Both the position numbers and the translations under genes were made by a program. Below the pieces are notes generated by a model that searched no databases, was not told the DNA's origin, and worked only from the letters and a program-made list of their open reading frames with translations. From positions 1-48,311 of the IMG/VR virus record IMGVR_UViG_3300027704_000041: a stretch of DNA of 48,311 nt; one strand, 5' to 3'. Origin of the DNA: a virus. Below are positions 1,888 through 32,100 of this stretch, one piece after another. Position 1 is the first letter of the stretch; every line of letters begins with the position of its first letter.

Positions 1888-2083
1888 TATAGGTAAAGAT
1901 TATAAAAATGATTCAATGCACTATTCCGTAGGCCAAGAGGTTTACGGAGGGCATACTATCGATTGTATAGTAGAAGAGAATGATAAGTTTTCAGTATATA
2001 TTAAGAAAGGTGTAAACGTGTTACCTTGGAAAGATTTCAATAAAAACATGGCTATATCTGTTGAGTATAACTTAGATTACTAA
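1865..2083 (+). CDS. Small hypothetical protein
   Basis: 72 residues if started at 1865, overlapping the preceding gene by 23 bases. A second in-frame ATG at 1916 (MHYSVGQEVYGGH) would give a 55-residue form that avoids the overlap and begins at the more protein-like beta-rich segment. The sequence looks like a small SH3-like or beta-barrel domain (VGQEVYGGHTIDCIVEEND, then VYIKKG), but this is only an impression. It shares its final base with the next start (TAATG), which supports it as a real operon member. Confidence 0.5.
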   Translation: MGLVRKISIGKDYKNDSMHYSVGQEVYGGHTIDCIVEENDKFSVYIKKGVNVLPWKDFNKNMAISVEYNLDY

Positions 2084-2679
2084 TGAAGAGTGTAACCAAT
2101 TTTATAATAAAACCAAAAGAAACCAGATACAACAATACTAAGAAAATAGGTGATAAAAGTCTTATATTAAACACTGAGATATTTACTCATCAAAATGTTA
2201 GTAGAAATGCTATAGTGTTACAAACACCAACAGTAGGTTGTACTGAAATAAAACAAGGTGACGAAGTTATAGTACATCACAATGTTTTTAGAAGATGGAA
2301 AGATATAAAGGGTAGAGAGAAAAACTCAAAATCATTTTACAAAGAAGATATGTATTTCGTTATGCCTGATCAAATATTTGCATATAAGAGAAACGACGTC
2401 TGGAGAGCTGTAAAAGGTTTTAGCTTTGTACAACCATTAGAGAGTGTAGATATGTTGTCTATGGATAAAGAAACGCCGCTCATGGGAGTTGTTAAGCATG
2501 TTGATCCTGATTTAATGGATCAAAAGGTTTACTTAAATTCTTTAATAGGTTTTTCACCTAATTCAGAATATGAATTCATCATAGACGGTAGAAGATTATA
2601 CAGAGTTCCAACGAATGCAATTACAATTAAATATGAATATCAAGGAAACGAAAAGGAATATAATCCAAGCTGGGCATAA
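2083..2679 (+). CDS. Possible tandem GroES-like co-chaperonin
   Basis: 198 residues with two halves that each resemble the GroES beta-barrel pattern. In the first, IVLQTPTVGCTEIKQGDEVI is followed by an exposed loop and then FVMPDQIFAYKR. In the second, PLMGVVKH leads to SEYEFIIDGRRLYRVP and a final ITIKY strand. In GroES the order is: glycine-containing strand, GD-x-V strand, then a strand ending in an acidic-Ile-x-Ala motif. Phage co-chaperonins such as T4 gp31 help the host chaperonin fold the capsid protein, and this gene lies just upstream of the head module. Similarity is read by eye only; an unrelated beta-barrel structural protein is the main alternative. No GroEL gene is in the window. 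Confidence 0.45.
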   Translation: MKSVTNFIIKPKETRYNNTKKIGDKSLILNTEIFTHQNVSRNAIVLQTPTVGCTEIKQGDEVIVHHNVFRRWKDIKGREKNSKSFYKEDMYFVMPDQIFAYKRNDVWRAVKGFSFVQPLESVDMLSMDKETPLMGVVKHVDPDLMDQKVYLNSLIGFSPNSEYEFIIDGRRLYRVPTNAITIKYEYQGNEKEYNPSWA

Positions 2680-2908
2680 AGCAGTTGAGGAATTAATAAA
2701 GGTAGCAGGTGAAAAGATCGTAGACTCAGGAGATGACATATCAGCTGACAGACTTAAAAATGCTGCTGCCACTAAAAAGCTGGCTATATTCGATGCTTTT
2801 GAAATATTAAATAGAATACAAGAAGAAGAAGATTTGCTAAACAATAAACCTAAAGAACAAGCTCAAGAAGTTGCTTTTGGTGGATTTGCAGAAAGGAGAT
2901 CTAAATAA
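2633..2908 (+). CDS. Probable small terminase subunit
   Basis: 91 residues from the ATG at 2633 (MNIKETKRNI); an earlier in-frame ATG at 2615 would add six residues inside the preceding gene. The protein is almost entirely helical: AGHKAVEELIKVAGEKI, then ADRLKNAAATKKLAIFDAFEIL, then an acidic tail. It sits directly before the large terminase and overlaps it by one base (TAATG). Position, size and helical character fit a small terminase subunit that binds the packaging site, but no clear helix-turn-helix is visible, so the call rests mainly on context. Confidence 0.5.
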   Translation: MNIKETKRNIIQAGHKAVEELIKVAGEKIVDSGDDISADRLKNAAATKKLAIFDAFEILNRIQEEEDLLNNKPKEQAQEVAFGGFAERRSK

Positions 2909-5145
2909 TGTATAATCAAACATTATACAAGGTCATAGAACCTATAAAAATAAATACCATAAAAAGACTTAACAAGTCCAAGAAGTGGGATTACGGGTAT
3001 AACAAAGAGCACGACGTAATTGTCATAAGCAAGACCGGTGAGATTGGTGAAATATATGAGATTCAAAACCTTAGAATAGCACTACCAAAAGCCGTAAACC
3101 CTCATAAATTTAGTAAGGATAAGTGGGAGGTTACTGAGTACCCTAGTGAATTAAAGCGAATTAAAAGTATTTTTGATTGGCGAGATTATCCTGAGGACTT
3201 TAAAGAGAAGTGGTATGAGTACATTAATACAGAATTTAAAAAACGTGAAGATGGCTTTTGGTTTAATTCCAAAGGTAAGCCTACTTACATTACTGGTTCT
3301 CATTACATGTACCTGCAGTGGTCCAAGATTGATGTTGGGTTCCCAGACTTTAGAGAGGCCAACCGTCTTTTTTTCATATTCTGGGCCGCCTGTGTTGCAG
3401 ACCCACGGTGTTACGGTATGTCCTATCTCAAGAATAGACGTTCTGGCTTCTCGTATATGGCATCCGGAGTTTGCGTCGACATGGCTACCATATCAACCGA
3501 CTCACGTTTTGGGATACTGTCCAAATCTGGCCCCGATGCTAAGAAGATGTTCACAGACAAGGTTGTCCCTATTTCCGTTAATTATCCGTTCTTCTTTAAA
3601 CCAATACAAGACGGAATGGACCGTCCAAAGACCGAATTGGCCTATCGTGTACCCGCTAGTAAACTTACCAGAAAATCCATTACCAGAACCAGTTCTAACC
3701 AATCCAAGACCAATGAAGCGAATGAAGAACTTACCGGTTTGGACTCAACGATCGACTGGAAGAATACAGGGGACAACTCCTATGATGGTGAGAAGCTCAA
3801 GCTCCTCGTCCACGATGAATCAGGTAAGTGGGAACGCCCGAACAACATCCTCAACAACTGGCGTGTCACGAAAACCACCCTTAGATTAGGTAGTAGAATT
3901 ATAGGTAAGTGTATGATGGGATCAACATCAAACGCTTTAGACAAAGGAGGAGATAATTTTAAGAAATTATACAAAGCATCAGATGTTACAAAAAGAAACC
4001 GCAATGGACAGACTAGCTCAGGACTATATAGTTTGTTCATACCTATGGAATGGAATTACGAAGGATTCATTGACGCTCATGGCTTACCTGTATTCGACAC
4101 ACCCGAGCAGGAAACTTTTGGCCCATATGGGGAAAACATTGATATAGGAATACTAGAGCATTGGCAAAATGAAGTTGATGGATTAAAAACAGATGGTGAT
4201 GCTTTAAACGAGTTTTATCGTCAGTTTCCAAGAACTGAAGAACATGCTTTTAGAGATGAAACAAAAAACAGTATATTCAACCTAGCGAAAATATACGAAC
4301 AAATAGATTTTAATGAGGATCTTAACAATGATTCTCAACTTACAACAGGAAGTTTTCAATGGATGAATGGAATGAAAGATACTAGAGTTATGTTTTATCC
4401 AAATCCAGCTGGTAGATTTAAAGTCAGTTGGGTTCCACCATTAAACAAACAAAACCTTAGTATTGTTAAAAACGGTATGAAATACCCAGCTAACGAACAT
4501 ATGGGTGCTTTTGGTTGTGATAGTTACGATATATCAGGAACAGTTGACGGAAAAGGTTCTAACGGAGCTTTACACGGTCTTACAAAGTTTAGTATGGAAG
4601 ATTGTCCACCTAATCAATTGTTTTTAGAGTACGTAGCAAGACCACAAACTGCTGAGATCTTCTTTGAAGACGTTCTAATGGCACTTGTATTCTACGGGAT
4701 GCCTATATTAGCAGAAAACAATAAACCTCGTCTATTGTATTATTTAAGAAGACGTGGTTACAGAGGTTATTCAATGAATAGGCCTGATAAGATTTGGAAT
4801 AAACTATCTGTTGCTGAAAAGGAAATAGGTGGTATACCAAACTCAAGTGAAGATATAAAGCAAGCACATGCGGCTGCTATTGAAATGTATATACAAGATC
4901 ATGTTGGCATGAAGGCAGATAATACATTTGGAACATGTTATTTTAATGAAACATTACAAGACTGGGCAAAGTTTGATATTAATAATCGTACTAAATTTGA
5001 TGCGGCTATTAGTTCAGGATTAGCTATAATGGCTTGTAACAGACACTTGTATAGAGCAAACCCAATTATGAAGAAAGAAAAATTAAACTTAAGCATATCT
5101 AAATACGGACAGGCAGGTATGACTTCAAAACTAATAGAAAATTAA
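2908..5145 (+). CDS. terL: Large terminase subunit (packaging ATPase-nuclease)
   Basis: 745 residues. The N-terminal ATPase shows a deviant Walker A around residues 175-182 (KNRRSGFS) and a Walker B with catalytic acid at D303-E304 (LLVHDES). The C-terminal RNase H-like nuclease starts around residue 530, with likely metal-binding D538 and D541 in FGCDSYD. It powers DNA translocation into the prohead and cuts the concatemer. Small terminase lies upstream, portal follows two bases downstream. Oddity: from roughly 2960 to 3885, covering the ATPase, the DNA is clearly richer in G+C and in CGN arginine codons than the rest of the gene and genome, with a sharp return to AT-rich sequence just after Walker B. 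Confidence 0.9.
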   Translation: MYNQTLYKVIEPIKINTIKRLNKSKKWDYGYNKEHDVIVISKTGEIGEIYEIQNLRIALPKAVNPHKFSKDKWEVTEYPSELKRIKSIFDWRDYPEDFKEKWYEYINTEFKKREDGFWFNSKGKPTYITGSHYMYLQWSKIDVGFPDFREANRLFFIFWAACVADPRCYGMSYLKNRRSGFSYMASGVCVDMATISTDSRFGILSKSGPDAKKMFTDKVVPISVNYPFFFKPIQDGMDRPKTELAYRVPASKLTRKSITRTSSNQSKTNEANEELTGLDSTIDWKNTGDNSYDGEKLKLLVHDESGKWERPNNILNNWRVTKTTLRLGSRIIGKCMMGSTSNALDKGGDNFKKLYKASDVTKRNRNGQTSSGLYSLFIPMEWNYEGFIDAHGLPVFDTPEQETFGPYGENIDIGILEHWQNEVDGLKTDGDALNEFYRQFPRTEEHAFRDETKNSIFNLAKIYEQIDFNEDLNNDSQLTTGSFQWMNGMKDTRVMFYPNPAGRFKVSWVPPLNKQNLSIVKNGMKYPANEHMGAFGCDSYDISGTVDGKGSNGALHGLTKFSMEDCPPNQLFLEYVARPQTAEIFFEDVLMALVFYGMPILAENNKPRLLYYLRRRGYRGYSMNRPDKIWNKLSVAEKEIGGIPNSSEDIKQAHAAAIEMYIQDHVGMKADNTFGTCYFNETLQDWAKFDINNRTKFDAAISSGLAIMACNRHLYRANPIMKKEKLNLSISKYGQAGMTSKLIEN
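2960..3885 (+). other. GC-rich compositional segment inside terL
   Basis: By hand count, 3301-3900 holds about 279 G/C in 600 bases (about 46%), while four 60-base lines just downstream (3901-4080 and 4261-4320) hold about 80 in 240 (about 33%). Within 3361-3890 arginine is mostly CGT/CGG/CGC, whereas flanking genes use almost only AGA, and codons ending in C (GCC, ACC, TCC, CTC, AAC) are common. The right edge is sharp near 3885; the left edge is gradual, with AAG- and CGN-type codons from about 2960. The reading frame is unbroken. Confidence 0.7.
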
Positions 5146-5146
5146 T

Positions 5147-7570
5147 ATGGCTGAGTCAGTTGTAAAAGGTTATTTTCCGAGTCAAGTTGTACCTGACGCA
5201 GAAAAAGTGAGTGCTGAGTATGGTTTACAAGTTGGTAAAGCTATTGAGTACGAGTGGTTTGATAGATCTAATTCTAATCAAAGGTATAATCAACATCAAG
5301 CAGAGTTTCATAAACTGAGACTTTACGCTAGAGGCGAACAGCCAATTCAAAAATATAAAGATGAGTTATCTATAAATGGTGACTTAAGCTATTTAAACTT
5401 AGACTGGAAACCAGTACCTATTATTCCTAAATTTGTGGATATAGTAGTTAATGGTATTTCAGAAAGATCCTATGATATAAAATGTTTCTCTCAAGATCCT
5501 TATGGTATCAGCAAGAGAACAAAGTATATGGAATCTATAATAAGAGATATGGAAACTCAAGAACTAAGTGACTTTGCGCAAGAAGCGTTTGGAATATCTT
5601 TGTTTGAAAATCCACCTGAAAAATTACCAGACAGTCAAGAAGAACTAGATCTTCACATGCAACTTAGCTACAAGCAAGGTATAGAGCTAGCTGAAGAGCA
5701 AGCTATAAACGTGTTGTTAAAAGGTAATAGATACGATTTAGTTAAAAGAAGAGTTAACTATGATCTAACCACTATTGGTATAGGTTGTGTTAAAAACACT
5801 TTCAGTAAGTCAGAAGGTGTTAAAGTTGAATATGTAGATCCAGCTAATATAGTTTATTCTTACACAGAAGATCCTGACTTTCAAGATATATACTACGTGG
5901 GTGAGGTTAAAACCATACCTATAAATGAATTAAAGAAAGAATTTCCTAGTCTAACAGATGAGGATTTAAAAAGCATAGCTAATCAAAGTATACATAGTTC
6001 TGGTTATTCTAATAATAGATACGATTCTGCTTACTATGACGACAAGAATCAAATTCAAGTTTTGTATTTTAACTACAAGACATACATGAATGAAGTATAC
6101 AAAGTTAAAGAAACGTCTACAGGTGCTGAAAAAATAATACTAAGAGATGATACATTTGATCCACCTATAAACGAGATGACTGGTAATTTTGGTAAAATAT
6201 CAAGATCATTAGAAGTGTTGTATGAAGGTGTGTTAATATTAGGTAGTGATTACTTGTTAAAGTGGGAACTAGCTAAGAACATGATGAGACCTAAGAGTGA
6301 TTATAGTAAAGTTAAAATGAACTACGCTATCAACGCTCCTAGAATGTATAAAGGTAATATTGATTCACTAGTAAAACGTATAACAGGTTTTGCTGATATG
6401 ATTCAACTAACGCATCTAAAATTACAACAAGTCATGTCTAGGATGGTTCCAGACGGTGTTTATCTAGACGCTGACGGATTAGCTGAGGTTGATCTTGGTA
6501 ATGGAACAAATTATAATCCACAAGAAGCGTTAAATATGTTCTTTCAGACGGGATCTATAATAGGTAGGTCTTTCACTTCTGAAGGAGATATGAATCCAGG
6601 AAAAATACCGATACAAGAGATATCAAGCGGTAGTGGTGGTCAAAAAATGCAATCATTGATTCAAAATTACAACTACTATTTACAAATGATACGTGACGTT
6701 ACTGGCTTAAACGAAGCTAGAGATGGTAGTACGCCAGATAGTAGAGCTCTAGTAGGTGTTCAAAAACTAGCGGCAGCAAATTCAAACACAGCTACAAGAC
6801 ACATACTACAGTCTGGATTATCTTTAACTCAAGAATTAGCAGAGGGTTTATCACTTAGAATATCAGATATATTAGAGTTCTCTCCAACAAGAGAGGCTTT
6901 TATACAGAAAATAGGTAATCAAAACGTTGGAGTGTTAGAAGATATATCTAATTTATATTTACATGATTTTGGCATATTCATAGAGTTAACTCCAGATGAA
7001 GAAGAAAAAGCTATACTAGAAAACAATATACAGGCAGCTGTTGCTGGTGGTTTGATAGATTTAGAAGATGCTATAGATCTTAGAGAGATTAAAAACATAA
7101 AACTTGCAAATCAATTATTAAAAATACGTAGAAAGAAAAAGCAAGAAAGAGAACAGCAAGTGCAGCAAGAGAACATTCAAGCTCAAGCACAAGCAAATGC
7201 TCAAGCTCAGCAGGTAGCTGCTCAAGCAGAAGTTCAAAAAGCACAGCAGTTGTTTCAAATAGAAACCCAAATGGAGCAAATGAAAGGTCAAATAGCAAGT
7301 CAAAAAATGCAAGAAGAGGCTATGCTTAAGAAAGAACTAATGGCTTTAGAGTTTGACTTTAACATGCAATTAAAAGGCATGGAGGTTGATAACGCTAAAG
7401 GCAAAGAGCAATACAAAGAAGATCGTAAAGACGATAGAACAAAAATACAAGCTACTCAACAAAGTGAGTTGATAGCTCAAAGACAAAACGACTCACCTCC
7501 TAAGAAGTTTGAATCTTCCGGGAACGACAATATGAGTGGATTTGACTTAGGTTCGTTTGGACCTATGTAA
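5147..7570 (+). CDS. Portal protein
   Basis: 807 residues, directly downstream of terL, the usual portal position. The core includes the segment around residues 390-560 with SSGSGGQKMQSLIQNYNYYL and the conserved-looking PDSRALVGVQKLAAANSNTA, typical of long podovirus/crAss-like portals. From about residue 665 the C-terminus is a long Gln/Ala/Glu-rich coiled coil, ending in a low-complexity tail. It forms the dodecameric channel at the capsid vertex. The Gln/Ala-rich tail likely lies inside or beneath the head. Assignment uses length, order and sequence feel; the alternative of another large structural protein is unlikely. Confidence 0.85.
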   Translation: MAESVVKGYFPSQVVPDAEKVSAEYGLQVGKAIEYEWFDRSNSNQRYNQHQAEFHKLRLYARGEQPIQKYKDELSINGDLSYLNLDWKPVPIIPKFVDIVVNGISERSYDIKCFSQDPYGISKRTKYMESIIRDMETQELSDFAQEAFGISLFENPPEKLPDSQEELDLHMQLSYKQGIELAEEQAINVLLKGNRYDLVKRRVNYDLTTIGIGCVKNTFSKSEGVKVEYVDPANIVYSYTEDPDFQDIYYVGEVKTIPINELKKEFPSLTDEDLKSIANQSIHSSGYSNNRYDSAYYDDKNQIQVLYFNYKTYMNEVYKVKETSTGAEKIILRDDTFDPPINEMTGNFGKISRSLEVLYEGVLILGSDYLLKWELAKNMMRPKSDYSKVKMNYAINAPRMYKGNIDSLVKRITGFADMIQLTHLKLQQVMSRMVPDGVYLDADGLAEVDLGNGTNYNPQEALNMFFQTGSIIGRSFTSEGDMNPGKIPIQEISSGSGGQKMQSLIQNYNYYLQMIRDVTGLNEARDGSTPDSRALVGVQKLAAANSNTATRHILQSGLSLTQELAEGLSLRISDILEFSPTREAFIQKIGNQNVGVLEDISNLYLHDFGIFIELTPDEEEKAILENNIQAAVAGGLIDLEDAIDLREIKNIKLANQLLKIRRKKKQEREQQVQQENIQAQAQANAQAQQVAAQAEVQKAQQLFQIETQMEQMKGQIASQKMQEEAMLKKELMALEFDFNMQLKGMEVDNAKGKEQYKEDRKDDRTKIQATQQSELIAQRQNDSPPKKFESSGNDNMSGFDLGSFGPM

Positions 7571-7600
7571 TTAATTTTTATAATTTTATAATATTTTATT

Positions 7601-8761
7601 ATGGCTAAAAAAGAAAATGTAGTCGAAGAAGTGGTAGAGCTGGTTGAAGAAACAAATGCTCCTACTGAAAAGACTGAACAAGGTGATCTAGTACCTGAAG
7701 TTACTGTCAAAGAAGATGGAACACATAAAATAGATTTTGACAAGTTAGTAGCTAAGCCAGAAAAAGGCAAGGTAGCTAAAGAAGAAGTTAAAGAAGAAGT
7801 TAAGGTTGAGGAGCCTGTAACTGTTGTTGAAGAAGAGGTTGTGCCTAAAGAGCCAACTGTTCTTGAGGAAATAACAGAAGAAAAGATTGTGGAAAAAGCT
7901 GAAGAAATTGCAGAAGCAGTTGTTGAGGCTCAAGAAACCGGAATAGATTTGCCAGAAAACATTCAAAAAGTTGTAGACTTCATGGATGAGACTGGTGGTA
8001 GTTTAGAAGACTATGTTAAGCTTAATACAGATATAGAAGCTTTAAATGAAGAACAACTACTTATGGAGTATTATCAAAATACTAAACCACATTTAGATGT
8101 ATCAGAAATAAACTTTCTACTTGAGGACAAGTTTTCCTACGAGGACGAGGTTGATGAAGAGAGAGATATTAAGAGAAAAAAACTAGCTAAAAAAGAAGAA
8201 CTAGCAAATGCTAAGAATCATCTTAACGGCTTAAAATCAAAATACTATGAAGAAATAAAAGCTGGCTCTAGGTTAGCTCCTGAGCAAAAGAAAGCTGTGG
8301 ATTTTTTTAATAGATATAATAAAAATCAAGAGGTTGCTGATAAGCAAACTAAAACATTCAACAATAAAACTAACCAAGTTTTTAATGACGATTTCAAAGG
8401 TTTTGAATACAACGTCGGAGACAAGAGGTATAGATTTAATGTTAAAAACCCGAATGAGATTAAAGATAAACAAGGCAACATTAATAATTTTGTTAAGAAG
8501 TTTCTTGACAAGAACAATGAAATGGAAGACGCTGCAGGTTATCATAAGTCTTTATTCACCGCGATGAATCCCGATGCAATCGCTAACCATTTTTACGAAC
8601 AAGGAAAATCTGATGCTATGAGGCAAAGTATTGCTTCTACAAAAAACATCAGCATGGATCCTAGAAAGGCTCAAGGAGCAGCACCTAAATCAGGTACTAC
8701 TTATAAGTCTGTAGATTCAGATGGTTCAACAGTTAATTGGGGATTCAAAAAAAGAAAATAA
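7601..8761 (+). CDS. Scaffold-like head assembly protein
   Basis: 386 residues, very acidic and low-complexity in the first 130 (runs of Glu, Val and Lys), then helical with a basic coiled coil (RDIKRKKLAKKEELANAKNH). It lies between portal and major capsid genes, the standard position of scaffolding proteins in tailed phages, and its composition fits one. No separate prohead protease was found between portal and capsid, so this may be a releasable scaffold rather than a cleaved one. The start follows an A/T-rich leader (ATATTTTATTATGG). Confidence 0.7.
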   Translation: MAKKENVVEEVVELVEETNAPTEKTEQGDLVPEVTVKEDGTHKIDFDKLVAKPEKGKVAKEEVKEEVKVEEPVTVVEEEVVPKEPTVLEEITEEKIVEKAEEIAEAVVEAQETGIDLPENIQKVVDFMDETGGSLEDYVKLNTDIEALNEEQLLMEYYQNTKPHLDVSEINFLLEDKFSYEDEVDEERDIKRKKLAKKEELANAKNHLNGLKSKYYEEIKAGSRLAPEQKKAVDFFNRYNKNQEVADKQTKTFNNKTNQVFNDDFKGFEYNVGDKRYRFNVKNPNEIKDKQGNINNFVKKFLDKNNEMEDAAGYHKSLFTAMNPDAIANHFYEQGKSDAMRQSIASTKNISMDPRKAQGAAPKSGTTYKSVDSDGSTVNWGFKKRK

Positions 8762-8787
8762 TTAACAAAAATTAAAAATTAAAAATT

Positions 8788-10242
8788 ATGGCATTAGCTG
8801 GAACTGGCGCTGAGTTATCACATGTGGTACCTCGCCCAAACAAACTTGCCTTTGACAACAATTACTTGTCAATCGCAGATAATGATTTTAACTTTGCAAG
8901 ACAATTCTTACCAGAAGTATATGAGAAAGAAGTAGAAAGATACGGTAACCGTACTATCTCTGGTTTCTTAAGAATGGTAGGAGCTGAAATGCCTATGGCA
9001 TCTGATCAAGTAGTTTGGTCTGAACAAGGTAGAATACACGTAGCATCAAACAACGCTACAATAGCAAACACCACTGCAACAACAGATACTATTACATTAG
9101 TAGCTGATCCTGTTGGAAATGGTGACGGATTAACCGCTGCTCAACAATTTGCTCTATATTCTGTAGGTGATACTTTAGTTGTATCTCAAGGAAATAGAAC
9201 TGTAAAAGCAAGAGTGCAATCAAAAGCTGGAGTTACTTTAGTAGTATCTGCTTATGATTTTGCTGGTATTGTACTTGCAGGTGCTAATGATGCTGGATTT
9301 ACTGCTGCTGCAGTACAACTATTCATCTTTGGTTCTGAGTATGCAAAAGGAACAAACAACGAGTCTCAACAATCTGTAGATTCTCCATTCACTAAATTTG
9401 ACAACAAGCCTATCATAATGAAAGGTAAGTATGAAATTAGTGGATCTGATACTGCACAAATTGGATGGGTTGAAGTTGCTACTGAAGCTGGAGCTTCTGG
9501 GTACTTATGGTACTTAAAATCTGAATCAGAAACAAGAATTAGATTTGAAGATAAATTAGAGATGGCAATGATTGAGGCTGAAAAAGCTGTTGCTGCATCT
9601 GGTTTAGCTGCAACTTTTACTGGATCTGAAGGTTTATTTGCTGCAATTGAGTCTAGAGGATTAGTATATAACAATCAACAATTTGCTAACGCTTGTGTTG
9701 GTGGAGGAATTGATGAGTTTGATGCTATCTTACAAGAGCTTGACAAGCAAGGAGCTATTGAAGAGAACATGATGTTCTTAGATAGATCTACTGCTTTAAG
9801 TATCGACAAGATGCTTGCTAACCAAAATTCTTACGGAGCTGGAGGTACATCTTATGGTGTATTCGATAACTCTGAGGATATGGCTTTAAATTTAGGTTTC
9901 TCTGGATTTAGACGTGGATCTTACGATTTCTACAAGTCTGACTGGAAATACTTAAACGATGCAACAACTCGTGGATTAATTGCTGACGTAGAAGGAGTTA
10001 TTGTTCCTGCTGGAACTTCAACTGTATACGATCAATCAATGGGGAAAAATATCTCTAGACCATTCTTACACATCCGTTACAGAGCTTCTGAAGCAGATGA
10101 TAGAAGAATGAAGTCTTGGATCACTGGATCTGTTGGTGGAAGTTACACTTCTGACGTAGATGCGATGACTGTAAACTTCTTATCAGAAAGATGTTTATGT
10201 GTACAAGCAGCTAACAATTTCGTATTATTGAAAAAATCATAA
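8788..10242 (+). CDS. Major capsid protein
   Basis: 484 residues following the scaffold-like gene. The body has SDTAQIGWVEV, a Gly/Tyr/Trp segment (GYLWYLKSESETRIRFED) and a beta-rich C-terminal half, reminiscent of capsid proteins from crAss-like and related Bacteroidota phages, which adopt the HK97 fold; the fold itself is inferred. The central part around residues 90-190 (Thr/Val/Gly-rich) may be an inserted surface domain. Very regular codon use, a strong A/T-rich leader (AAATTAAAAATTATG) and a hairpin directly after the gene fit an abundantly expressed product. Confidence 0.85.
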   Translation: MALAGTGAELSHVVPRPNKLAFDNNYLSIADNDFNFARQFLPEVYEKEVERYGNRTISGFLRMVGAEMPMASDQVVWSEQGRIHVASNNATIANTTATTDTITLVADPVGNGDGLTAAQQFALYSVGDTLVVSQGNRTVKARVQSKAGVTLVVSAYDFAGIVLAGANDAGFTAAAVQLFIFGSEYAKGTNNESQQSVDSPFTKFDNKPIIMKGKYEISGSDTAQIGWVEVATEAGASGYLWYLKSESETRIRFEDKLEMAMIEAEKAVAASGLAATFTGSEGLFAAIESRGLVYNNQQFANACVGGGIDEFDAILQELDKQGAIEENMMFLDRSTALSIDKMLANQNSYGAGGTSYGVFDNSEDMALNLGFSGFRRGSYDFYKSDWKYLNDATTRGLIADVEGVIVPAGTSTVYDQSMGKNISRPFLHIRYRASEADDRRMKSWITGSVGGSYTSDVDAMTVNFLSERCLCVQAANNFVLLKKS

Positions 10243-13188: not shown

Positions 13189-16100
13189 ATGCCAGAATTT
13201 ATTCATAATTTTACTCAGGGAAAGATGAATCATGATCTCGACGAGAGAATGGTTCCAAACGGTCAATACAGAGATGCTTTAAATGTTTCTGTGTCTACTT
13301 CTGAATCTAGCAACGTTGGTGCTTTACAAAACATAAAAGGTAACACTGAAATGAAAGGTTCGCCTTCTTCAGAGTCGAATTGGACTGCTGGATACATAGA
13401 TAGTTTAAAAAATCCTGTATGTATAGGTTCTATTAGACATGAGCCAACAGAGTGTATATATTGGTTTATTACATCTGATAGAGATACTAGAAAAGATTCA
13501 ATAAATACTATAGCAGAGTTTAATCAAAAAACAGGTGACGTTACTCCTGTTATTGTTGATACTAAAAATATATTAAAGTTTAGCTCTCAAAAATTAATAA
13601 CTGGTATAAACATAGTAGATGATCTGTTGTTCTTTACAGATGATAATAGTGAACCTAAGAAAATAAACATTGTAAAGTTTAAAAAAGGTTCTTCAAATGG
13701 TGGTAGTCCAAATTTTGTAACTCATACAAAAATACCAGCATATTCCACATCAAGCAAAACATATTCTTTTAACGCCGCTGGGGCAGACTTTACAGAAGCA
13801 GATGTTACTGTTATTAAAAAATCACCTTTATGTAAGCCTGATTTAACTCTAGCTACAAGTAGTAGATCTTATTCTGGAGAAGAAGTTCCAGGTACAGGTG
13901 TTAGTCCTTTAAATACTACTTATGACTTTGTAGGGAATTTCCCAGCAAGTGGTGATACATATACTAACTTTACTTATATATCTGATCAAGCTAGTGGTAC
14001 TGCCGCTGCTGAATACACGCCTCTACCAACTTTTCAGGAATGGGTTGTTGATCAAGCTTTAGGTTCACCTGTGTTTCCAGTTAACATGGCAAGCGTTACA
14101 TTAGCGTTTAATCAAACACCTACTGGTTGGGAGGATGGTGATACAATAGCTTTAACTGGTAGTGCCGTTGGAGATTATAATAACATAGACGAATATACTC
14201 TTAGGTTAAAGATAGTTGCTAATGGTATAAACGGTAACGAAGTAGAATTTCAAATAATGTCTATACCTTCAAAGATACTAAGATTTGGAGTAGCTGAAGA
14301 TGAGCTTGTTTCTTGGGAAGCTCTTTTAGAGGAAAAAGATCCTATGTTTGAATTTGAGTTTCCTAGATTTGCATATAGATGGAAGTATGAGAACGGAGAG
14401 TATTCTTGTTTCTCACCATTTACTTCACCGGCTTTTGAAGGTGACGACTTTGAATATTTATCTAGTGACGGTTATAATTTAGGCATGCAAAACCGTTTAA
14501 GATCTTTAATAATAAGCGGTTTTAATTGGGGTAGTTTAGAGGTTGTTGAGGTTGATGTTTTAATGAAAAAATCTAGATCAAACAATATATACGTTGTTGA
14601 CACTTTAAAAAGATCTGAGTCTGATGTTTTAAATGTTTCTCCACCAAATACATTTAAGTTAAAGACAGAATTAATTGGCGCGGTAGTAGAGTCTAATCAA
14701 TTATTAAGACCTTGGGATAACGTTCCAAGAAAAGCTAAAGCTCAAGAGGTTACAGCTAATAGATTAATATTTGCTAATTATTTACAAAACTTTGACGTAC
14801 CTAAATTAAAATTAGACCTTAGCATAGCTAGCTCAACACACCCTGGCTTCATTGATTCTGATAATGATGGTGATTTAACTGATGAGCAAAACTTTAAAAG
14901 ACCAATACCTTCGCTTAAGAGTATTAGAAAATACCAAGTAGGTATAGTACTTCAAGATGCTTATGGTAGACAAACACCAGTATTCACTAACCCACAAGCT
15001 ACTGTTAATTTAGATAAAGTTAACGCTGTTAAAACTAATAAGTTTGTAATAGAAGCTTTACCAATAGCTAATACTATTGCTAATAACTTCACTCATTACA
15101 AATACTTTATAAAAGATACATCTAACGAGTACTACAACTTAGCATTAGATAGATTTTATTTTGCTGAAGACGGTAACGTTTGGTTAAGCTTTCCTTCATC
15201 TGAAACAAGCAAAGTACAAATAGATAGTTATTTAATACTAAAAAAACAACACGACACAAATAGTCCTTCTATAGGACCTTCAAGATACAAAGTGTTAGAC
15301 GTTCAGTCAAAGGCTCCAGATTTTATATCTAGGTCTAAAAAAATATTTTCAACAGCTAACGCAACAGTTTTAAGTGGATTTAAAGAAGGTTTTTCTACGA
15401 TAAGTTTTAGTTCCGCTGCTGATATTAATGGCGCTTTTGCTAATGGTTTTAACGGTGACACATCTTTAAGGATTTCACAAGGAGCAAACTCAACTGATAT
15501 AATAGGTGTTAAGAGTGGTGGTAGAACTGGAGTTGGTGAGACATATGTAGTTAATTTAGACACACCACTTGGCGCAGAGTCTTTGTGGATGGGTACTACA
15601 GGTTTGGAAGACGGTGAGGAAATAACTATTGACTTGTTTAAAGAAGAAGAAGATAGGTTACCTGAGTTTGAAGGAAGAGTTTTTGTTAAAATAAACAGAG
15701 ATACGGATTTTGAAGTAAACATAGTAAAAACATTTGAACAAGCAAATAAGAGATATGGAATAAAAGCTCACGTGGATATAGTTTCACCTAGACATGTGTG
15801 TGGAAATAGTTTAGGTAGGTCTGAGAGATGGGGTTATTGGCACGGATCAGCTGGTCAAGGTAGATCTGGTTGTTTCTGTGACGCGTGTGAAGACCAAAGA
15901 AGATTTAACGCTCCTTTTAACAACAATGGTAGCAGGTGCAAAGGAACTTCGGGCGGCGGCGGGCCTAGAGCAAACACTGTAGCGGAAGGTAATCCTGACT
16001 GGAAGTTTGCAGATGTCTTTAGAGTAGGTTGCGCTACTAATGAAAAAATGATTGGTATAGCCGTAATTGGTACTGATGATTGGTCTAATTCTCTCGTGCA

Positions 16101-18944
16101 ACCAGGTGATGGTGGTGATAAGGGAACTAGTAGTGGTGATTTTATGAGAACAACAGCTAGCAATGGTGAGTTAATAAGAATTATTCATACTGATGGTAGA
16201 GTTACAAAACCTTACGAGATTGATAAAAACTGGAGAGTTGGATTAGCAAGAGGTTGTAAAAAAGGTTGCTTTGCTGGTGTTAACCCAGGTTGCGACGCAG
16301 ATAAACAGAGTGGTAAAGACGGAAACAAGCATCTAGGACTTGCTTTAAAATTAAAAGAACCAATACAAGAAGACTGGGTTGGCGATCGTACAGCTAGTGG
16401 TATGAGTTCAATAAAAGGATACGAAATAGTAGAAGAAATTGTAACTGATAACAATAGCGTTTTAACATCTACAAATCCAGCTGTTTTTGAAACAGAACCA
16501 AAAGAAGCTGTTGATATAGATATATACTACGAAGCTTCATGTGCTTTTCCAATATCTGATTTAATATCAGGTTCAACTAGCAATAACATTAAAGTTTTAG
16601 ATTATTTCAATTGTTATTCTTTTGGTCAAGGTGTAGAATCTGATCGTATTAGAGATGATTTTAACGCCCCTGTGATAGGTAAAGGTGTTAAAGTTTCTAG
16701 TATATTAGATGAGCCATATAGAGAAGAAAGAAGATCAAATGGTCTTATATTCTCTCAAATATATAATTCAACTTCAGGTGTAAATAGATTGAATCAATTT
16801 ATACACCATATAGAGAAGAAAGAAGATCAAATGGTCTTATATTCTCTCAAATATATAATTCAACTTCAGGTGTAAATAGATTGAATCAATTTATACAGGC
16901 AGAGGCTATAACAAAAGATCTTAACCCAGAGTACGGTTCAATACAAAAACTACACTCTAGAAACACTAATCTAGTTACTTTATGCGAAGACAAATGTCTA
17001 AGTATATTAGCTAATAAAGATGCATTGTTTAATGCTGACGGTAGCGCTAACATAACCTCTAACAAAGCTGTTTTAGGTCAAGCTCAACCTTACGCTGGTG
17101 AGTTTGGTATAAGCACCAACCCAGAGTCATTCGCTGCTTATGGTTTTAGAAGTTATTTTTCAGACAGAAACAGAGGTGCTGTTATTAGATTATCACAAGA
17201 TGGTATAACTAATATAGCTTTAAAAGGTCTTACAGACTTCTTTGCAGATAACTTACCAGTATGTACTAAAATAATTGGTAGTTACAATGATGACAAAGAA
17301 AACTACAATATAACTTTAGACAAGTTAACAGATGAATGGCAAGACAAGTTCTCTAAGACACCGAAAGATAAAACACATTGTGAAGTACCTAATGACGAGT
17401 CTGATGACGTGGAAACAACTACAGTGTCATTTAAAGAGACAGTAGGTGGTTGGCCTAGTAGAAAATCTTATTATTCTAAAACAGGTAATGTTTTTTATCC
17501 ATTAGAAGGTGGTGTGTCTATAAACGACAAGTATTACACTTTTAATAAAGGATTAATATGGGAGCACGCCTCTAATAGCGTTCACAATAATTTTTACGGA
17601 ACTCAATACGATAGCTCTGTTAATGTTATTATAAACGATGCTACTGAATCTGTGAAAGGTTTTAAAACTCTTAACTATTCTGGAAGTGATTCTAGAAGAT
17701 ATACCTACGGGACGAGTGCTGGTTTAACTGGTTTGAGTATAGCAGAGCTTGTTGATCTACGTATAGTACCTTCTACTGTAAACAGCGAAGCTTTTACACC
17801 TGGATGGTATACTAATTATATAAACACTGACATGGAAGAAGGTCAGATAAAAGAGTTTATTAAAAAAGAAAACAAATACTTTAATAAAATAAAAGGTTTA
17901 AATACTTTTTGGAAAGACAATTGCGACAACAACGTTGATTCTAGCGCTTTCCCAACACAAGGTTTAGGCTTTGCAACCATATCAGCTAGCGCACCAAGTG
18001 CTTTTGACTTGACTATTAACATAGATTTAAGTTGTTCCACTACTGGTAATAGCGATATACCAGATACAACTAAGAAGTTCTGGTACTACTGGTCCTGTAA
18101 CAAGCCTGGCTCTAATATAAACATAGACATAAGACAAAAAGCAACAGATCAATTAGTTAAATGTGGTATTGAAGAGTTTTACAACAACTTCTCTAACGGG
18201 TATGCTGAAATAGATAAAAACTATTTTGATTTTAAGTTTTTCAACTCTTCAGGTGTAAATGTTAATACAACTTTGTATAATCAAGATAATGAAATAATGA
18301 ACGTGAGTGGTAAGTTTCTTTATATAGAACCAGCCACTACTCCTGATAATAATGCTTTAAATAAAAATGTTACTGGAACGTCAGTACCTAACACATATCT
18401 TATCATAACTGTTACCAACGGTGTTATAACAGCTAAAACTCAATACAACACGCTAAGCGCTTGCTCATTAACTCCTGACGCTCAGTTTAAAAGTTTTCTT
18501 GGTTATAGATACACTAGTGGTGCAGGGGTTTACTTTATAAACTTAATAACATATGCGGCTAGTATTTCAACACCTTCTCAAAGAGCAGCTGCTACAAAAA
18601 CACAACTTAAAAACTGGTTAACTAGTTCTGCTATAGTAAATGTTCCTAGTCGTGATTTAATGAGACTTAGTAATGAGTTTACTTATTCTGCAGGAGCTGG
18701 TATTGCTGTTGGAGCTACCTTGTACGGAAACGGTGGAGTTGCTTTAACTCCTAACTATAGAAAAGGTATAATGATATACAACACGTTGTCAACATTAAGT
18801 GAATCTGGTTACTATCTATATACTAACCCACCAACAGCGTTGTTAAAAACAGACGCAGGGTGGAGTAGTTTACCTAGCAATTGGAAGTTTATAACATTTG
18901 AAAATAGCGTAATTACTCACATAACAACTATGAACACTCTATAA
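13189..18944 (+). pseudogene. Giant tail protein split by a 92-bp duplication
   Basis: Two open frames, 13189-16875 (1228 residues) and 16881-18944 (687 residues), are one gene interrupted by a perfect 92-bp tandem duplication at 16714-16897. Removing one copy joins them in frame into a 1887-residue protein. The start (FIHNFTQGKMNHDLDERMVP, then NGQYRDALNVSVS and NIKGN) matches the opening of large tail stabilisation/nozzle proteins in crAss-like and other podoviruses. Around the break the text is conserved-looking on both sides (NGLIFSQIYNS then NQFIQAEAITKDLNPEYGS). Residues 871-1034 contain nine cysteines. It probably forms the tail nozzle or stalk. The break may be an assembly artefact or a real recent mutation. 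Confidence 0.75.
16714..16897 (+). repeat. Perfect 92-bp tandem duplication
   Basis: Copy one is 16714-16805 and copy two 16806-16897; all 92 bases match, starting CCATATAGAGAAGAAAG and ending AATCAATTTATACA. Because 92 is not a multiple of 3, the second copy shifts the frame of the tail gene and stops it at 16875. Confidence 0.95.
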
Positions 18945-23153: not shown

Positions 23154-26100
23154 ATGAAAGGCACACCTTTAAAACAAGCCCAACAGTATTCTTACAATGG
23201 TAAAGATTTTTCTATAGAAGAAATACAAGTTGCGGCTGATTCTAGCGGATTAAGTTTCGACGACTACGTTAGCAAGCATAAACTGATTAATGATGATTTT
23301 CAAACAGATCCTGTAAATGTGGAGGCAGTTGCGGGGTCGGAGATACAACCAATAAATACGGCCTCCAAATTGGAAAAATCTTTATCGGATTTCAAATTTA
23401 GACTAACAGGTGATAGAGATAAAAACGAAGTAAAACGCGTCGATCCACAAATTAAGAACGTTGTGCAAGATAGCACAAACCCAAACCAATACATAAAACG
23501 TATACCTAAAAAAATAAAAACTGCCGAAACTTTAGAGAAAGATATATTTGATGACATAGTTAATCCCGAAAATATAGACTTCGGTGTACCCGGATCAGAA
23601 GTTGCCGCTGCTGCTGCTGTTAAATTTGAAAAACTACAAAAACAAGGTGCGGACTTTTTAAGAAGAATATCTGTTAGAAGGATTAAAAATACAAACAAAT
23701 CTAACATCTTAAACGCAGCTTCTTCTGAAGAAAAAGTAACAACTTTATTAGAGGTTCTTAAACCTAGCGTTAATAAAGAAGGTGTTCAAGATTTTAGTAG
23801 TACATCTTTTATTGGTAGAGTCTTAGGATCAGATGAAGAGGAAGGAAAAATAACCTTTGACAAAATATTTAGTGGAACTAATTTAGAGTTTGAAGAAGTA
23901 AACCAAGGCCAGTTTCAAGGTGATAATTACGCAGTACTTAATGCAGCGTCTGGAGGAACAACAGGTGGTTTTGAATTTATAAAAGTTAAAATACCTGGCT
24001 CGGAAGGGCATGTTGTATTAGAGCTTAATACTGATAGTCTTTTTACAGGTCAACAGACATCGGCTTTAAATAAAGCTAATTACAAGTTGCTACAAGACTA
24101 CATGACTAAAAATGCTAGTCTAATAAAAACAGATAGAGACTTTTTTCAAAACAAAGAAAGTTTAAGAGATGAGGCAAGAGCTATTACTGAAATAGCTACA
24201 GAGAATAATCCAATTTTTATTGAAGAAAAACAAGAAATAAAGTCAAGATTTAATGTACTTAATCTTGATAAATCTACAGCGGTAAATAATACTGAGTTTT
24301 ACAAAATAAATCAACTATTTGATGGTAAATACTCAACCGACAGAATGCCATATTCTGATGAAACTGGTAGTTCTCATGAAAGAGGTGTATTAGCAGATAA
24401 GTTTGATGCTGTTTCTAAAGAGCTAAGTGCGCTTAGCGATGATCGTATAGATACTCTTAAAGAAAAATACAAAGCTAAAACCATTGACGATCTTGCTAAG
24501 ATGATGGTTTTGAATCAAGAAGCCCAAACTGAGACCTTAGGTTTAATTAATAAGTTTTCTCAACTATATATAGAAGATAATTTTCAAAGCAGGGATACAG
24601 CTGCCGCGTTAAACGTTGGTACAAGGATGCTAGATTTAGATCTAAATAAAGAGCTAGAAAGTATAACAAGTACGCAGAGTACTATATTAGATAAGTCTAA
24701 AGAAAATAAAAACATTCAACAAATAATACAAGACGTCATTGATCAAAAAGGCGGAATGACCCAGTTGCAGGAGGAACAATTAACTATAGCTTTAAATAAC
24801 AATGGTATTGTTATAGACCCTTACGATAACGAAACTTATTCAGAAACTACAATTGATGAAAACGGTGTTGAGACTACAACGGTGTTTAATAAAGCGATTC
24901 TTAGTAATTTAAAAACACTATATGATCAAGCCTACATGGATAACGCTTCTTATTATAGTATATTTAACACATTAAACGACAAAGCTCAAAACATAGCTGA
25001 TAAAAAAAATGAATTAAACGTGTCTATGGACGCGGCTTCTAGAAACTATGATTTAAGTGAAAAATATATATCTAACATTGCTTTAGGTACTCTTGACATT
25101 GGTGCTGGTATCGCAAACTTAGGTTTTAATGTTTTTACAGGTGGTGTTTACATGGACGAAGAAAGTCCGTTTCAAGACCTTTATAAAACTACAAATAGAG
25201 TTAGAGGTAGTTATGTTAGAGACGTAGACTTTAGTAGTGGAGCAGGTGGAGCTTTCAATTCAATAGGAAATTTTGGTAAATTTTTAATGCAAGAAGGTTC
25301 AAATCAACTTCCTATATTAGCAGCTATGGTTGCTAGTGGTGGTTATGCTGCTCTTGTAGTAGGCGCTTCCTCTACTGGTCAAAAGCAGATGGATATGACT
25401 TACCAGCTTGTAAATGGTTTAAAAGATCATTCACATACTTCAATGTGGTTAACAAGTTTAGGTTATGGTCTTGCTGAAGGTGGATTTGCGCATTTAACAA
25501 CTGTACCTATTTTAGCAAGAGCAAAAAGAAACTTCTTAAAATCTGGCAAGCTAAAAGGTATGCAGGCTTTAAATACCTCGTCAAAAAACTGGGCTAAAGA
25601 AAATGCTAGAGGAACAGTTACAGATATACTTTTAGAACCTTTAGGTGAAATAGCAACTGTTGGTGTTCAAAACATGTTAGATGGAGTTGATGTCACTAGA
25701 GGTATGGACCATGCTGGTTTCTCTGGTTTTGGTTTTGGATTATTGTTTAGTGGTTTACCTTTTCTTAGAGGAGCTTATAATTCTAAATTTTCTTCATATG
25801 AAAGCATGAGTGAAATGCGAGGTTTGCAAAACAGCATCAATGAGATGGGTAGCAAATTAGACAGGATGAACTATGGTATGGGAGATATTAATCCTAATTT
25901 TTTCAAGACAAAGAAACAGTTAATGGATAACATGGCTAAAAAACAAGCCAAGCTTAATAAGTTAATTGAATCTAACACTACACTAATACAAAACACTTTA
26001 GGTGAAGAAGCGATTGGTGCTACTATATTCGTAAGGAACAAGCAGTTTGGGATTCAGAATAAGATTAAGGATATTAAAAATAATCCAGATATAGATGCGG

Positions 26101-29100
26101 CTACTAAGCAAAAATTAATATCTGATTTAGTTGCAGATTTTGACATAATAGAAAGTCGACTGCAGGATATGTTGTCTGATACAAATAAGAAAAAACTTAG
26201 AACTGCTTTTGTAGGTTTAGAGGTTACTAACAAAGAAAAATATGATAACTTCATTTCAGAAGCAGACGCTAATTTAATAGCTAAAGATCCTGACAAAAAA
26301 CACACGCCAGAGGACGTAAAGAAAGAAGCATATAATCTTTATATGAAAGACAAGTTTGAAGCTACTGATGCTCAAGCCGCTGCTGAAGGTATTAATATAT
26401 CTCAATTTAATACAGTAGACGAAGCTGTTACAGGCGTGCAAGCATTGGTTGATAACGGAACTTTAGATGAGCAAGTTGGTGCTGATTTTATAGATGGTAT
26501 AAAAAACAATAATGCAGATGGCGCGGCATACGTTGATGCTAATGGTGTTAAGACTACTATTTCCGTAATGGAGAATAGAATTAAAAACGAACAACAATTT
26601 ACAAAAACACATGAAATAGGTCACCAAGTATTTTGGGAGCTGTTTACTGGTAAAGGTGCTGATAGAATAGGTTTTGGTAATGTATCTAATCAACTTCTTA
26701 CTTCAATGGAGATGATTGATAATAAAACTTACCAAAGCTTTATAAAAGACCAACGTATATACGACGGAGATGGTAACGTTGATCCTAAAGAAGTTATATC
26801 TGTTTTTCTTGAGTATATTGCCCAAGGTAAATTTGGTGAGAAAAAAGCAAAAGGTTTATCTGGTTTATTTGGTGTTCTTACTCAGCAGAAGTTTAAAGAA
26901 AAATATAAGTTTGATTTCAAAGGAGAAACTGATTCTTATAATTTTGTTGTTAATTTAGCTAAAAAAATACAAGACGGAACTTTAACAAAAGAAGATATAG
27001 CTGATGCTAAAGAGTCTAGCGTGGTGACAGATGCTCAGACTAATGACATAAAAGATTTTATAAATCAAACAAAAGAAGCTCCATCTGACGTAGCTAATAG
27101 TGCTGGTACTAATTTAGAAGGTTTATTAAATGACTTTGTTGTAGGGAAAATGAACATCGATAGGTCTAAGAAAGGACTACCTGTTTTACCTGAAGGATTT
27201 ATTCCAAAGCCTGAAAAGAAAAGAGAAAAAATAAGATCTTTTGTTAACGGCATGTTAAGCACAGATGTTAACGGCAATCAAGTAACGGATTTTATGAAAT
27301 CAAGATTAGTTGCTGAATCTGACGCTATGGGTCCTTATGTAACAACTATTTCTAATAAAATTTGGAACGGTTTAGATCCAATGAACAGAGAAGGTCAAAC
27401 TATAGATACTTGGAAGCAACTTGTAGCTACAGAGTTATCTACAATGATACAGCAAGAGTATTTAAAACCAAATAAAGAAGGTGTTACTAAGTTTCAAGAT
27501 TTAGATAAGTTCGTAAGAAACAGAGGTTACTTTAGAGTGTTTGAGTTAGCGAAAGCTACTTTTAAGCAAACTGCAGCTACTTTAGGTTTAGAGAATGTTG
27601 GAGACGTTGCTGACACAGAGGTTGATTTAGATGCTGAGCAAGCTGATCTTGATGCTGCTAAAAAACTAAGAGATAGTAAGGTTGATTTTGTTAACAAAGT
27701 TAAATTTATAGACAGCAGTAATAAAGCTGTTAATCTACCAAATAGTGTAGTAGATGCGATAACTAATAATATTGTAAAAACATTTAAAACTAAAAAGTTT
27801 AAGAATGAGTTAGGTACTAACAAGTTTAGAACAGAGCTAGCTAAAGAGTATGGCGGAAGCATAGGAACTATGTTTAAAAATGTAATGCAACGTGGTGAAA
27901 ACTTTAACAACGATGTAGAGCTAACAAATGCAGATAAAAAAGGTAACTATTCTCAGTTTTTATCACAAAACTTTAACTTAATATACGATCTACCTATAGA
28001 TGTATTGAATAAAAAATATCCTTTCTTAACTGAAAGCACAGGTGTTAGAATGAATGCTGAGCAAATCAGAGGTCATAATGATGCTATAGACAAAGGCTTG
28101 AGTGTTGGTAAAAAAATAACTGATATAAAGTCTGGGCCTTTTATATTTGAAAAAGTAAAAGACAAGATAAAAGCTAAAATAGATTATTTAAATTACTTTG
28201 AAGGAACAGGTGTTAAGCCTAACACTAAAGGAGCTAGACAGTTATCTTTAGCTGATACGATGGGTCAAGAATCTGCTTATGATATTCAAGGAGATGCTCT
28301 TAGAGAAGCTGGTTTTAAAACAGAGGCTTTTATACAAGAGTTAAATAAAAACGTAGGTAGAGTAGCTTTTAGTTCTGTTAGAGGTCTAGATTTTGGTAAA
28401 CAATCTCAGTTTTATGCATCACTACCAGGTGTTGCTAGTATGTTAGACCCAAGCTCAACAAACTGGGCTGATCCTAAAAAAGTAGAAACAACGTTCAGAG
28501 AAATATTAAAAGATCAGTTACCTAATTTTACTAATTCAGAGGTAAACGCTATAGCAAAAGAACTAGCCGCTTACGCTAAGAAATTTAATCTTGTTGATCC
28601 TATAGTTAAAGATGGAGCTAAAGATTCTGGAATTCTTCTAGATTATATAAGTGACATGTTTTCTGAGAACCAGGTAAACCAAGCTCTAAGATCGTTTTTA
28701 AACTTAAACGAAGCTATTGCTCAAGGATTTGAGAATGACGTTAGAATACAAAGACATCGAGCTATACCTTTAGATTACATAAGACAGTTTGATAATGATC
28801 CAGTAAGACAAAGACAGGCTATTATTGACGTCATACAAAATAAACCTATGTATGCTGGTGCTGGTAAAATTGGCGATGGTAGATATCAAGTGTTTGAAAA
28901 TACAAATGATTTTTACAAGCACTTAAACACTTTGCCTGGTATTGAAATTGATATACCTAACTCAAGAAAATCTACACAATCTTGGCTTAAGATAAACGGT
29001 AAAGAAGTAGCGCAAAGTGAAATTACTTTAATAGCAGAGACAAGTGCTGGCGGATTAAAAGATAAAAACTTTACTGGAAGATTAGAACAAGCTAAAAACG

Positions 29101-32100
29101 CTAGACGATATGTTAAAGGCATGATGGAATTAGTTGTTGATGGTGAATATGACAATATGGATTTAGCTATGTTAGTTAAACAAATGGATTCTCAAATGAC
29201 AGCTCCATTAAAAAGAGCAGCTAACTTAGAATACATTGTACCAGGATTAAATCCTAAAAACGCTAGGTACGAGCACATGATACCTACTAATTTTGTTTTA
29301 ATGAACTTAGTTGATTACTACAAGAATGACAGAGCTAATGCTGATACAAAAGCAGACGAGTTATTTGAAGAGTATAAAGTGGCTATTATACCTAAAAAAA
29401 TGGATGATTTTCTAACCAAGGTTGGTTTACAATCAAAAATGAACTTAGGTTATAAGATAGGTGATCCTGCTTTTAAAAGATATTACAACATAAGAACTTG
29501 GGGTAACAAAAACTTTGTTGCTATAACAAGTATAAACCCAGACGCTACAACTAAAATTATTGGTGAGTCTTGGGAAATTGCAGGTAAAGCAGTCAACAAA
29601 CAAAACTTGTTCCAAGAGTTACAACAATACAGAGCTGAGACTAAAGCTGTTGAATTAGGCTCTAAAGTAGCTTTTTCAGCCAAAGGTATAAGTGTTTGGG
29701 ATTTTGATGATACATTGGCTCAAACTAAATCTAACGTGCTTTATACGCTTCCAGATGGAACGAAAGGAAAAATAGACGCTACAGAGTTTGCGTTACAATC
29801 TGCTGAACTAGAGTCTAAAGGTGCTAAGTTTGACTTTAGTGAATTTACTAAAGTTATGAAAGGTAAAAAGGGCCCTATGTTTGAGAAGGCTGTTGCTCGT
29901 AATAAAAAATTTGGAAATGAAAATGTTTTCATACTTACCGCTAGACCTCAAGGTGCTGCAAATGCTATACATACTTTTCTAAAAGGTATTGATCTTGATA
30001 TACGTCTAGAAAATATAGTTGGATTAGCTGATGGTACAGCTAAAGCAAAAGCTGACTGGATGATAACTAAAATAGCTGACGGTTACAATGATTTCTACTT
30101 TGCTGACGATGCTATTAAAAATGTTAAAGCAGTAAAACAAATATACGATAATTTTGATATAAAAGGTAGAGTTCAACTAGCTAAAGTTGCTTTTAGCAAA
30201 GGTCTAAGTGAAGATTTTAACAGCATGATGGAGCGTCAAAAAGGAGTAGATCCTAATAAAACGTTTTCCGAAGTAGTAGCTAGAAGAAGAGGTAAGAAGA
30301 AAGGTGGTTTTAAATTCTTTATTCCGCCTTCAGCAGAAGATTTTAGAGGTTTAACTCAATATACTTTTGCTGGTAAAGGAAAACAAGGTGATGCAGATCA
30401 AACTTTCTTTGAAGACGCTTTAATGGCACCTTATTTTAAAGGTATAGCTGCTATTGAATCGTCTAGACAATCTATCAAAAATGATACTTCAGGTTTATTA
30501 AAGATGTATAAGCCAGTGGTTAAAAAATTAAACAAATTAATTCCAGGAGGAGACTTCACGTATGACGCTGCTATAAGAGTATATCTTTGGACAGAGGCTG
30601 GTATTGAAATACCTGGTATATCTAAAAGAGATCAAAAAAAATTACATGACTTAGTTAAGAATGATTCAGATTTATCTGGCTACGCTGCTGGATTACTTAC
30701 CGTGTCAAAAGTAGATGTATGGCCAGAGCCTAGTAAGTACTGGGATACACAAACAACCTTAAGTGATTTACAAAACCTAACTGACAAAGTAAATAGAAAG
30801 CAATACTTATCTGAGTTTATTGAAAACGTAGATACTATATTTAGTGAAAAGAATTTATTTAAAATAGAGGCGCTTTACGGTAAGGCTACTAGAAGTGCTA
30901 TAGAAGATTCTATTTACGCTATGAAAACAGGTAGTAACAGAACAACAGGTTCTAATAGCATTAACAACTCTTGGTTGAACTGGATAAACAACTCTGTAGG
31001 TACTATAATGTTCTTCAATAGAAGATCAGCATTACTACAGTTAATATCTTCAACAAACTTTATAAACTGGAGTGATAACAATGTTTTACAAGCTGGTTTA
31101 GCTTTTGCTAACCAACCACAATATTGGAAAGATTTCGTAATGATATTTAATTCTGACAAGTTAAAACAAAGACGTGGTGGTTTAAAATCAGATGTTCAAT
31201 CAGCTGAGATAGCTAATGCAGCTAAGAATACAAAAGACAAAGCTAACGCAGCTATATCTTATTTGCTTAAAATAGGTTTTACACCTACACAAATAGCGGA
31301 TAGTTTTGCTATAGCTTCAGGTGGAGCTTCTTTTTATAGAAATAGAGTTAAAACCTATACAAAAAAAGGCATGTCTAAAGCTGATGCTGAAGCTGCTGCT
31401 TTTCAAGATTTCAGTAAAGTATCAGATGAAGCTCAACAATCTGGTGATCCTGCTTTAGTTTCACAACAACAAAGAAGTACGGCGGGTAGATTAATACTGG
31501 CTTTCCAGAATACGCCGATGCAGTATACTAGGTTGATGAAGAAAGCTGGCCAAGATATAATAAATGGTAGAGGAGATTTTAAAACAAATTTTAGTAAAAT
31601 AATATACTACGGAGCTGTGCAGAATTTAATATTCAATGCGTTACAGCAAGCGTTGTTTGCTTTAATACCTGGGTTTGACGATGACGATACTGATGAAAGT
31701 CTAGAAATTAGTCAATCTAGAAAACAAGCAAATATATTAAACGGAATGATGGATTCTATCATTAGAGGTAGTGGTATATATGGCGCTATCGCAACCACTC
31801 TTAAAAATACTATAAGAAAATTTTATCAACAAGAGAAAAAAGGATTTACAGCTGATCATACTTACACTATAATAGAAGCTGCAAACATATCACCTCCTGT
31901 AGGTTCTAAGTTAAGAAAAATATATAGTGCTATTCAAACTTATAGGTTTAACAAAGACGTTATAGCTAAACACCCTTGGGATTTAACCATAGAAGGTAGA
32001 TACAATCCATCTCCTAATTACGAAATAATGGGAAGTCTTGCTTCTGCTTTAGTAAACATACCTCTTGATAGGGTCATGATAGAATCACGAGGCATAGCTG

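Follow-up and report, generated by a model that had tools for sequence, protein, structure and literature searches.

Structure of the duplicated locus

The window analysed here is the whole 48,311-nucleotide record IMGVR_UViG_3300027704_000041, an IMG/VR contig from a crAss-like phage whose genes include those for terminase, portal, nucleotide metabolism and recombination. A long gene in its first half is interrupted by two adjacent 92-bp copies, which together form an array of exactly 184 bp without overhang. The features of the locus are as follows:

13189–16875, plus strand: N-terminal part of the muzzle, 1228 aa, of which about 1206 are native and 22 foreign, stop codon TAA at 16873–16875
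16714–16805, plus strand: copy 1 of the 92-bp duplication, translated in the native frame
16805–16806, no strand assigned: novel junction, with zero microhomology
16788–18944, plus strand: C-terminal muzzle frame, first possible start TTG at 16881 (687 aa), first in-frame ATG at 17832
16806–16897, plus strand: copy 2, identical to copy 1, out of frame in the first fragment and in the native frame in the second

Sequence comparison confirmed the identity of the two copies, as given in the preliminary description; divergence between them is zero, and the expectation of such a perfect 92-bp tandem repeat arising by chance in the window is about 1e-47. On the left, the array is entered from AGATGAG directly into CCATATAG; on the right, the unit ends in TTTATACA and is followed by GGCAGAGG. 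Microhomology is absent at the junction, since the AGATGAG before copy 1 is unlike the unit end. Measured against relatives, the two outer boundaries of the array are native, and the only foreign element is the central junction.

Since the 92-bp unit is not a whole number of codons, the gene is split into two frames, which overlap by about 85 nt (16788–16872). The arithmetic of the preliminary description, in which removal of one copy restores a single frame of 1887 residues, is correct. The native continuation is open from 16788, and its first ATG, GTG or TTG is the TTG at 16881, placed 5 nt past the stop of the first fragment with AGGTG upstream. All 30 of the other genes of the phage that were checked start with ATG, mostly behind A/T-rich leaders, and the leader of the TTG resembles none of theirs; expression signals for the second half are thus lacking. 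The frames of 1228 and 687 codons exist as had been described, but the two polypeptides predicted from them fare less well: a stable second product is doubtful, because the 687-residue frame has neither an ATG nor a leader of the native type.

Relation to the crAss-like muzzle family

Judged from profile comparisons, the split gene is the muzzle of a crAss-like phage, a homologue of gp44 of phicrAss001. The families used were PF25731/PF25729 and PHROG 14478. The first fragment matches Pfam crAss_MUZ with 36.8 bits (curated cut-off 27, E 1.8e-9) and the second reaches 26 bits against crAss_MUZ_C, just under the cut-off of 27 (E 1.2e-5), while PHROG 14478 matches both (E 2.8e-91 for the first and 2.5e-37 for the second). 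A profile of the intact relatives can be aligned along the whole length of gp44, hhalign giving 1193 columns at 21% identity with a pairwise E of 6.6e-6 and a probability of 85%. The earlier assignment to large tail stabilisation proteins was right in seeing one long virion-gene frame and imprecise as to the protein.

The gp44 protein forms hexamers at the tail tip and comprises a ring-joining domain, a seven-bladed propeller, two IG domains and the crass fold (PMC10172136). On this alignment, which is weak here, the joint would correspond to about residues 1020–1080 of gp44, right after IG2 (which ends at 1021) and close to where the last propeller blades begin. For the closely placed relative L002, the C-terminal 885 residues were modelled with AlphaFold; pLDDT averaged 53 and fell under 30 across most of the joint region, and the model was set aside for this reason. 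A search of solved structures by sequence gave one chance-level match and nothing else, no muzzle relatives were found in the cellular genomes searched, and there was no near nucleotide match among sequenced phages.

The site in relatives

Comparison with relatives, which the preliminary description had proposed, found one copy and a single long frame. The whole muzzle gene is one frame of 1814–1894 codons in 14 contigs. Aligned on L002, the window's fragments cover residues 1–1209 and 1179–1886, and the 31 residues that they share are the duplicated unit. Altogether, 62 muzzle sequences of the unsplit type, including that of the window, could be placed at the joint, and the other 61 all read through it with one copy. 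In relatives the unit reads PYMEERRSSGLIFSQIYNSQSGINRLNQFIQ or similarly, and it ranks among the most conserved 5% of the muzzle protein. Exact matches to the junction or to the repeat core were absent from other viral contigs, which leaves the virus without a second assembly to compare.

Three of the 61 (L015, L017 and L030) are frameshifted at different places in the muzzle gene, in each case without a tandem duplication. Two of these, L015 and L030, share one sample of origin (3300046167), pointing to indel errors in its assembly.

Rarity of the duplication and state of the genome

We scanned 383 sequences including the window (5.36 Mb, 4.15 million distinct 31-mers) for two-copy tandem repeats with units of 20–500 bp and a matching run of at least 28 bases and at least the unit length minus 10. 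The window's own duplication was the only perfect one of its kind in this material. It is no family trait, no recurrent switch and no frequent assembly fault in the sequences surveyed; a recurrent or phase-variable repeat would have its like in other members, and none of the 383 sequences provided one.

The genes of the window that can be compared with relatives are full-length, the comparison being partial for a few, including the collagen-like and 3098-aa genes. A decaying genome was rejected on the intactness of these comparable genes. DNA identity to relatives is alike to the left and right of the joint; both sides thus derive from one lineage, and a chimeric join of two strains was rejected on the same ground.

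Three further regions of the window were noted. At 65–1210 lies a collagen-like Gly-X-Y repeat protein with 13 partial 90-nt repeats, whose PHROG matches are tail-fibre-like. Within 2083–10242 the nearest relatives change, the small upstream genes, terminase and portal being closest to L035/L036 (about 83–91%) and the major-capsid-like gene to L011/L025 (96%); this could reflect mosaicism, or merely short reference contigs. The 3098-aa frame at 23154–32450 has only partial matches, to the giant proteins of relatives, and probably encodes virion cargo or a protein of polymerase type.

Two-gene muzzles in a sister clade

A sister clade of marine crAss-like contigs carries the muzzle in two successive genes (L212–L220, L222–L224, L364, L378, L380, L382), an arrangement present, by our reading, in 31 of the 50 contigs of one surveyed set. 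A search of one literature library found no paper on the two-gene muzzle of this clade. The second gene is an open frame of 427–637 aa that matches the end of crAss_MUZ together with crAss_MUZ_C, and it has its own start codon 5–45 nt past the stop of the first gene (ATG in all 12 natural second genes compared). The cut lies after the crass/IG2 part and upstream of the conserved block, which the second gene keeps whole; in this clade, the second chain would complete the propeller.

In the tree of this block, the 16 split sequences need a single label change. They form a 100/100 group with one unsplit sequence (L360), the branch uniting split sequences only being weak (84/2), and the window falls with L011, L003 and L002 in an unsplit clade (98/98). 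Cut position, start codon and phylogeny therefore reject the window's split as an ordinary two-ORF muzzle: its only start at the break is the TTG at 16881, it is cut inside the block and it belongs to the unsplit clade, the natural split being different and older. Since the window is cut inside the conserved block, its event differs from that of the sister clade and looks non-functional.

Origin of the duplication

Every relative examined is single-copy at the site, so the 92-base repeat most likely reflects an error of sequence assembly or a newly arisen, dead-end mutation, and not new biology. The preliminary description had opposed an assembly join to a real recent duplication, which is the right pair; the repeated k-mer that it named as the route remains a candidate. 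Between the two, we believe that an artefact of assembly is the more probable, a minority duplication that the assembler promoted being included in this reading. In its favour count the nature of the record, an uncultured IMG/VR contig, the 61 single-copy relatives, the conservation of the unit, the intact comparable genes, the undiverged copies, the zero microhomology, the want of any parallel and the single lineage on both sides.

Overlapping pieces of the same sequence, be they the ends of contigs, mates that overlap or an assembly-graph loop that is chimeric or of low frequency, would have been joined end to end with the shared 92 bases left unmerged, and the duplication would then represent no population consensus. 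The underlying genome would be that of an otherwise intact crAss-like phage with its muzzle gene in one frame of about 1887 codons. We can envisage three routes. Firstly, contigs overlapping by k−1 bases may have been placed end to end, 92 being 93−1; nodes of assembly graphs overlap by k−1 bases (PMC9215042), k=93 occurs in the older JGI SOAPdenovo series, and overlaps of 80 or more were used in merging (PMC5369317, PMC4149020). Secondly, overlapping mates may have been joined end to end, 2×150 reads from a 208-bp insert giving an overlap of 92; the reported inserts of 196–216 bp with 2×150 reads correspond to mate overlaps of about 84–104 bp (PMC5369317, PMC4149020). Thirdly, a minority or chimeric duplication may have produced a graph loop that the assembler walked. 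Against an artefact, however, most assemblers now in use have k values that 92 does not match, and such artefacts are absent from the related contigs surveyed, so they too are rare.

Phages do acquire tandem duplications, and 92-bp direct repeats can be deleted again via recombination or slippage. A real recent duplication that destroyed the muzzle, caught in the sample as a defective or rapidly reverting allele, is the strongest competitor, although we regard it as unlikely. It accounts for the junction in the deposited sequence, for identical copies, which are expected of a recent event, and for a single lineage on both sides of the joint; it also requires that a genome intact elsewhere should have a conserved tail-tip gene disrupted in its assembled consensus, has no parallel in the 383 sequences, and does not predict zero microhomology if simple slippage was the source. 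If the duplication is real, the gene for the gatekeeper at the tail tip of these crAss-like phages would have undergone loss of function or fission.

A functional fission like that of the sister clade, with both fragments made and assembling in trans, seems very improbable to us. The sister clade's cut lies not far upstream, the weak alignment puts the joint just after IG2 of gp44 near the last blades, and the TTG with its AGGTG closely follows the first stop. These points are outweighed by a cut within the block that stays whole in natural second genes, by a TTG and leader unlike those of the 30 other genes, by the window's place in the unsplit clade and by the 22 foreign residues on the first fragment. 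Slighter still is the chance of a fission in progress, in which a real duplication, now fixed, would recently have turned the muzzle into two polypeptides, close to the inter-domain site of the sister clade's ancient split. Programmed ribosomal frameshifting, in which a −1 shift within the overlap would join the two frames, merits practically no credence, as a search of the overlap for a slippery X_XXY_YYZ heptamer found none and relatives need no frameshift at the joint.

The finding serves mainly as a warning over annotation: in this record, gene calling will yield two structural proteins and a truncated muzzle where relatives show one protein.

Comparison with known systems

Both fragments of the window match the muzzle family to which gp44 of phicrAss001 belongs. 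In gp44 and the unsplit relatives the muzzle is one frame, whereas in the window it is in two, broken at the 92-bp duplication. The window's duplication resembles misassemblies at repeats and at overlaps between contigs in being a perfect repeat shorter than a read, with undiverged copies and arbitrary breakpoints, and for the window such errors are a candidate source only. The natural two-gene muzzle (L212–L220, L222–L224) is similar in having two successive muzzle frames, and differs in that it has no duplication, an ATG on the second gene and a cut upstream of the block, the window standing outside its clade. The sister clade thus shows where a muzzle can be cut yet maintained, and is the more useful by-product of this analysis.
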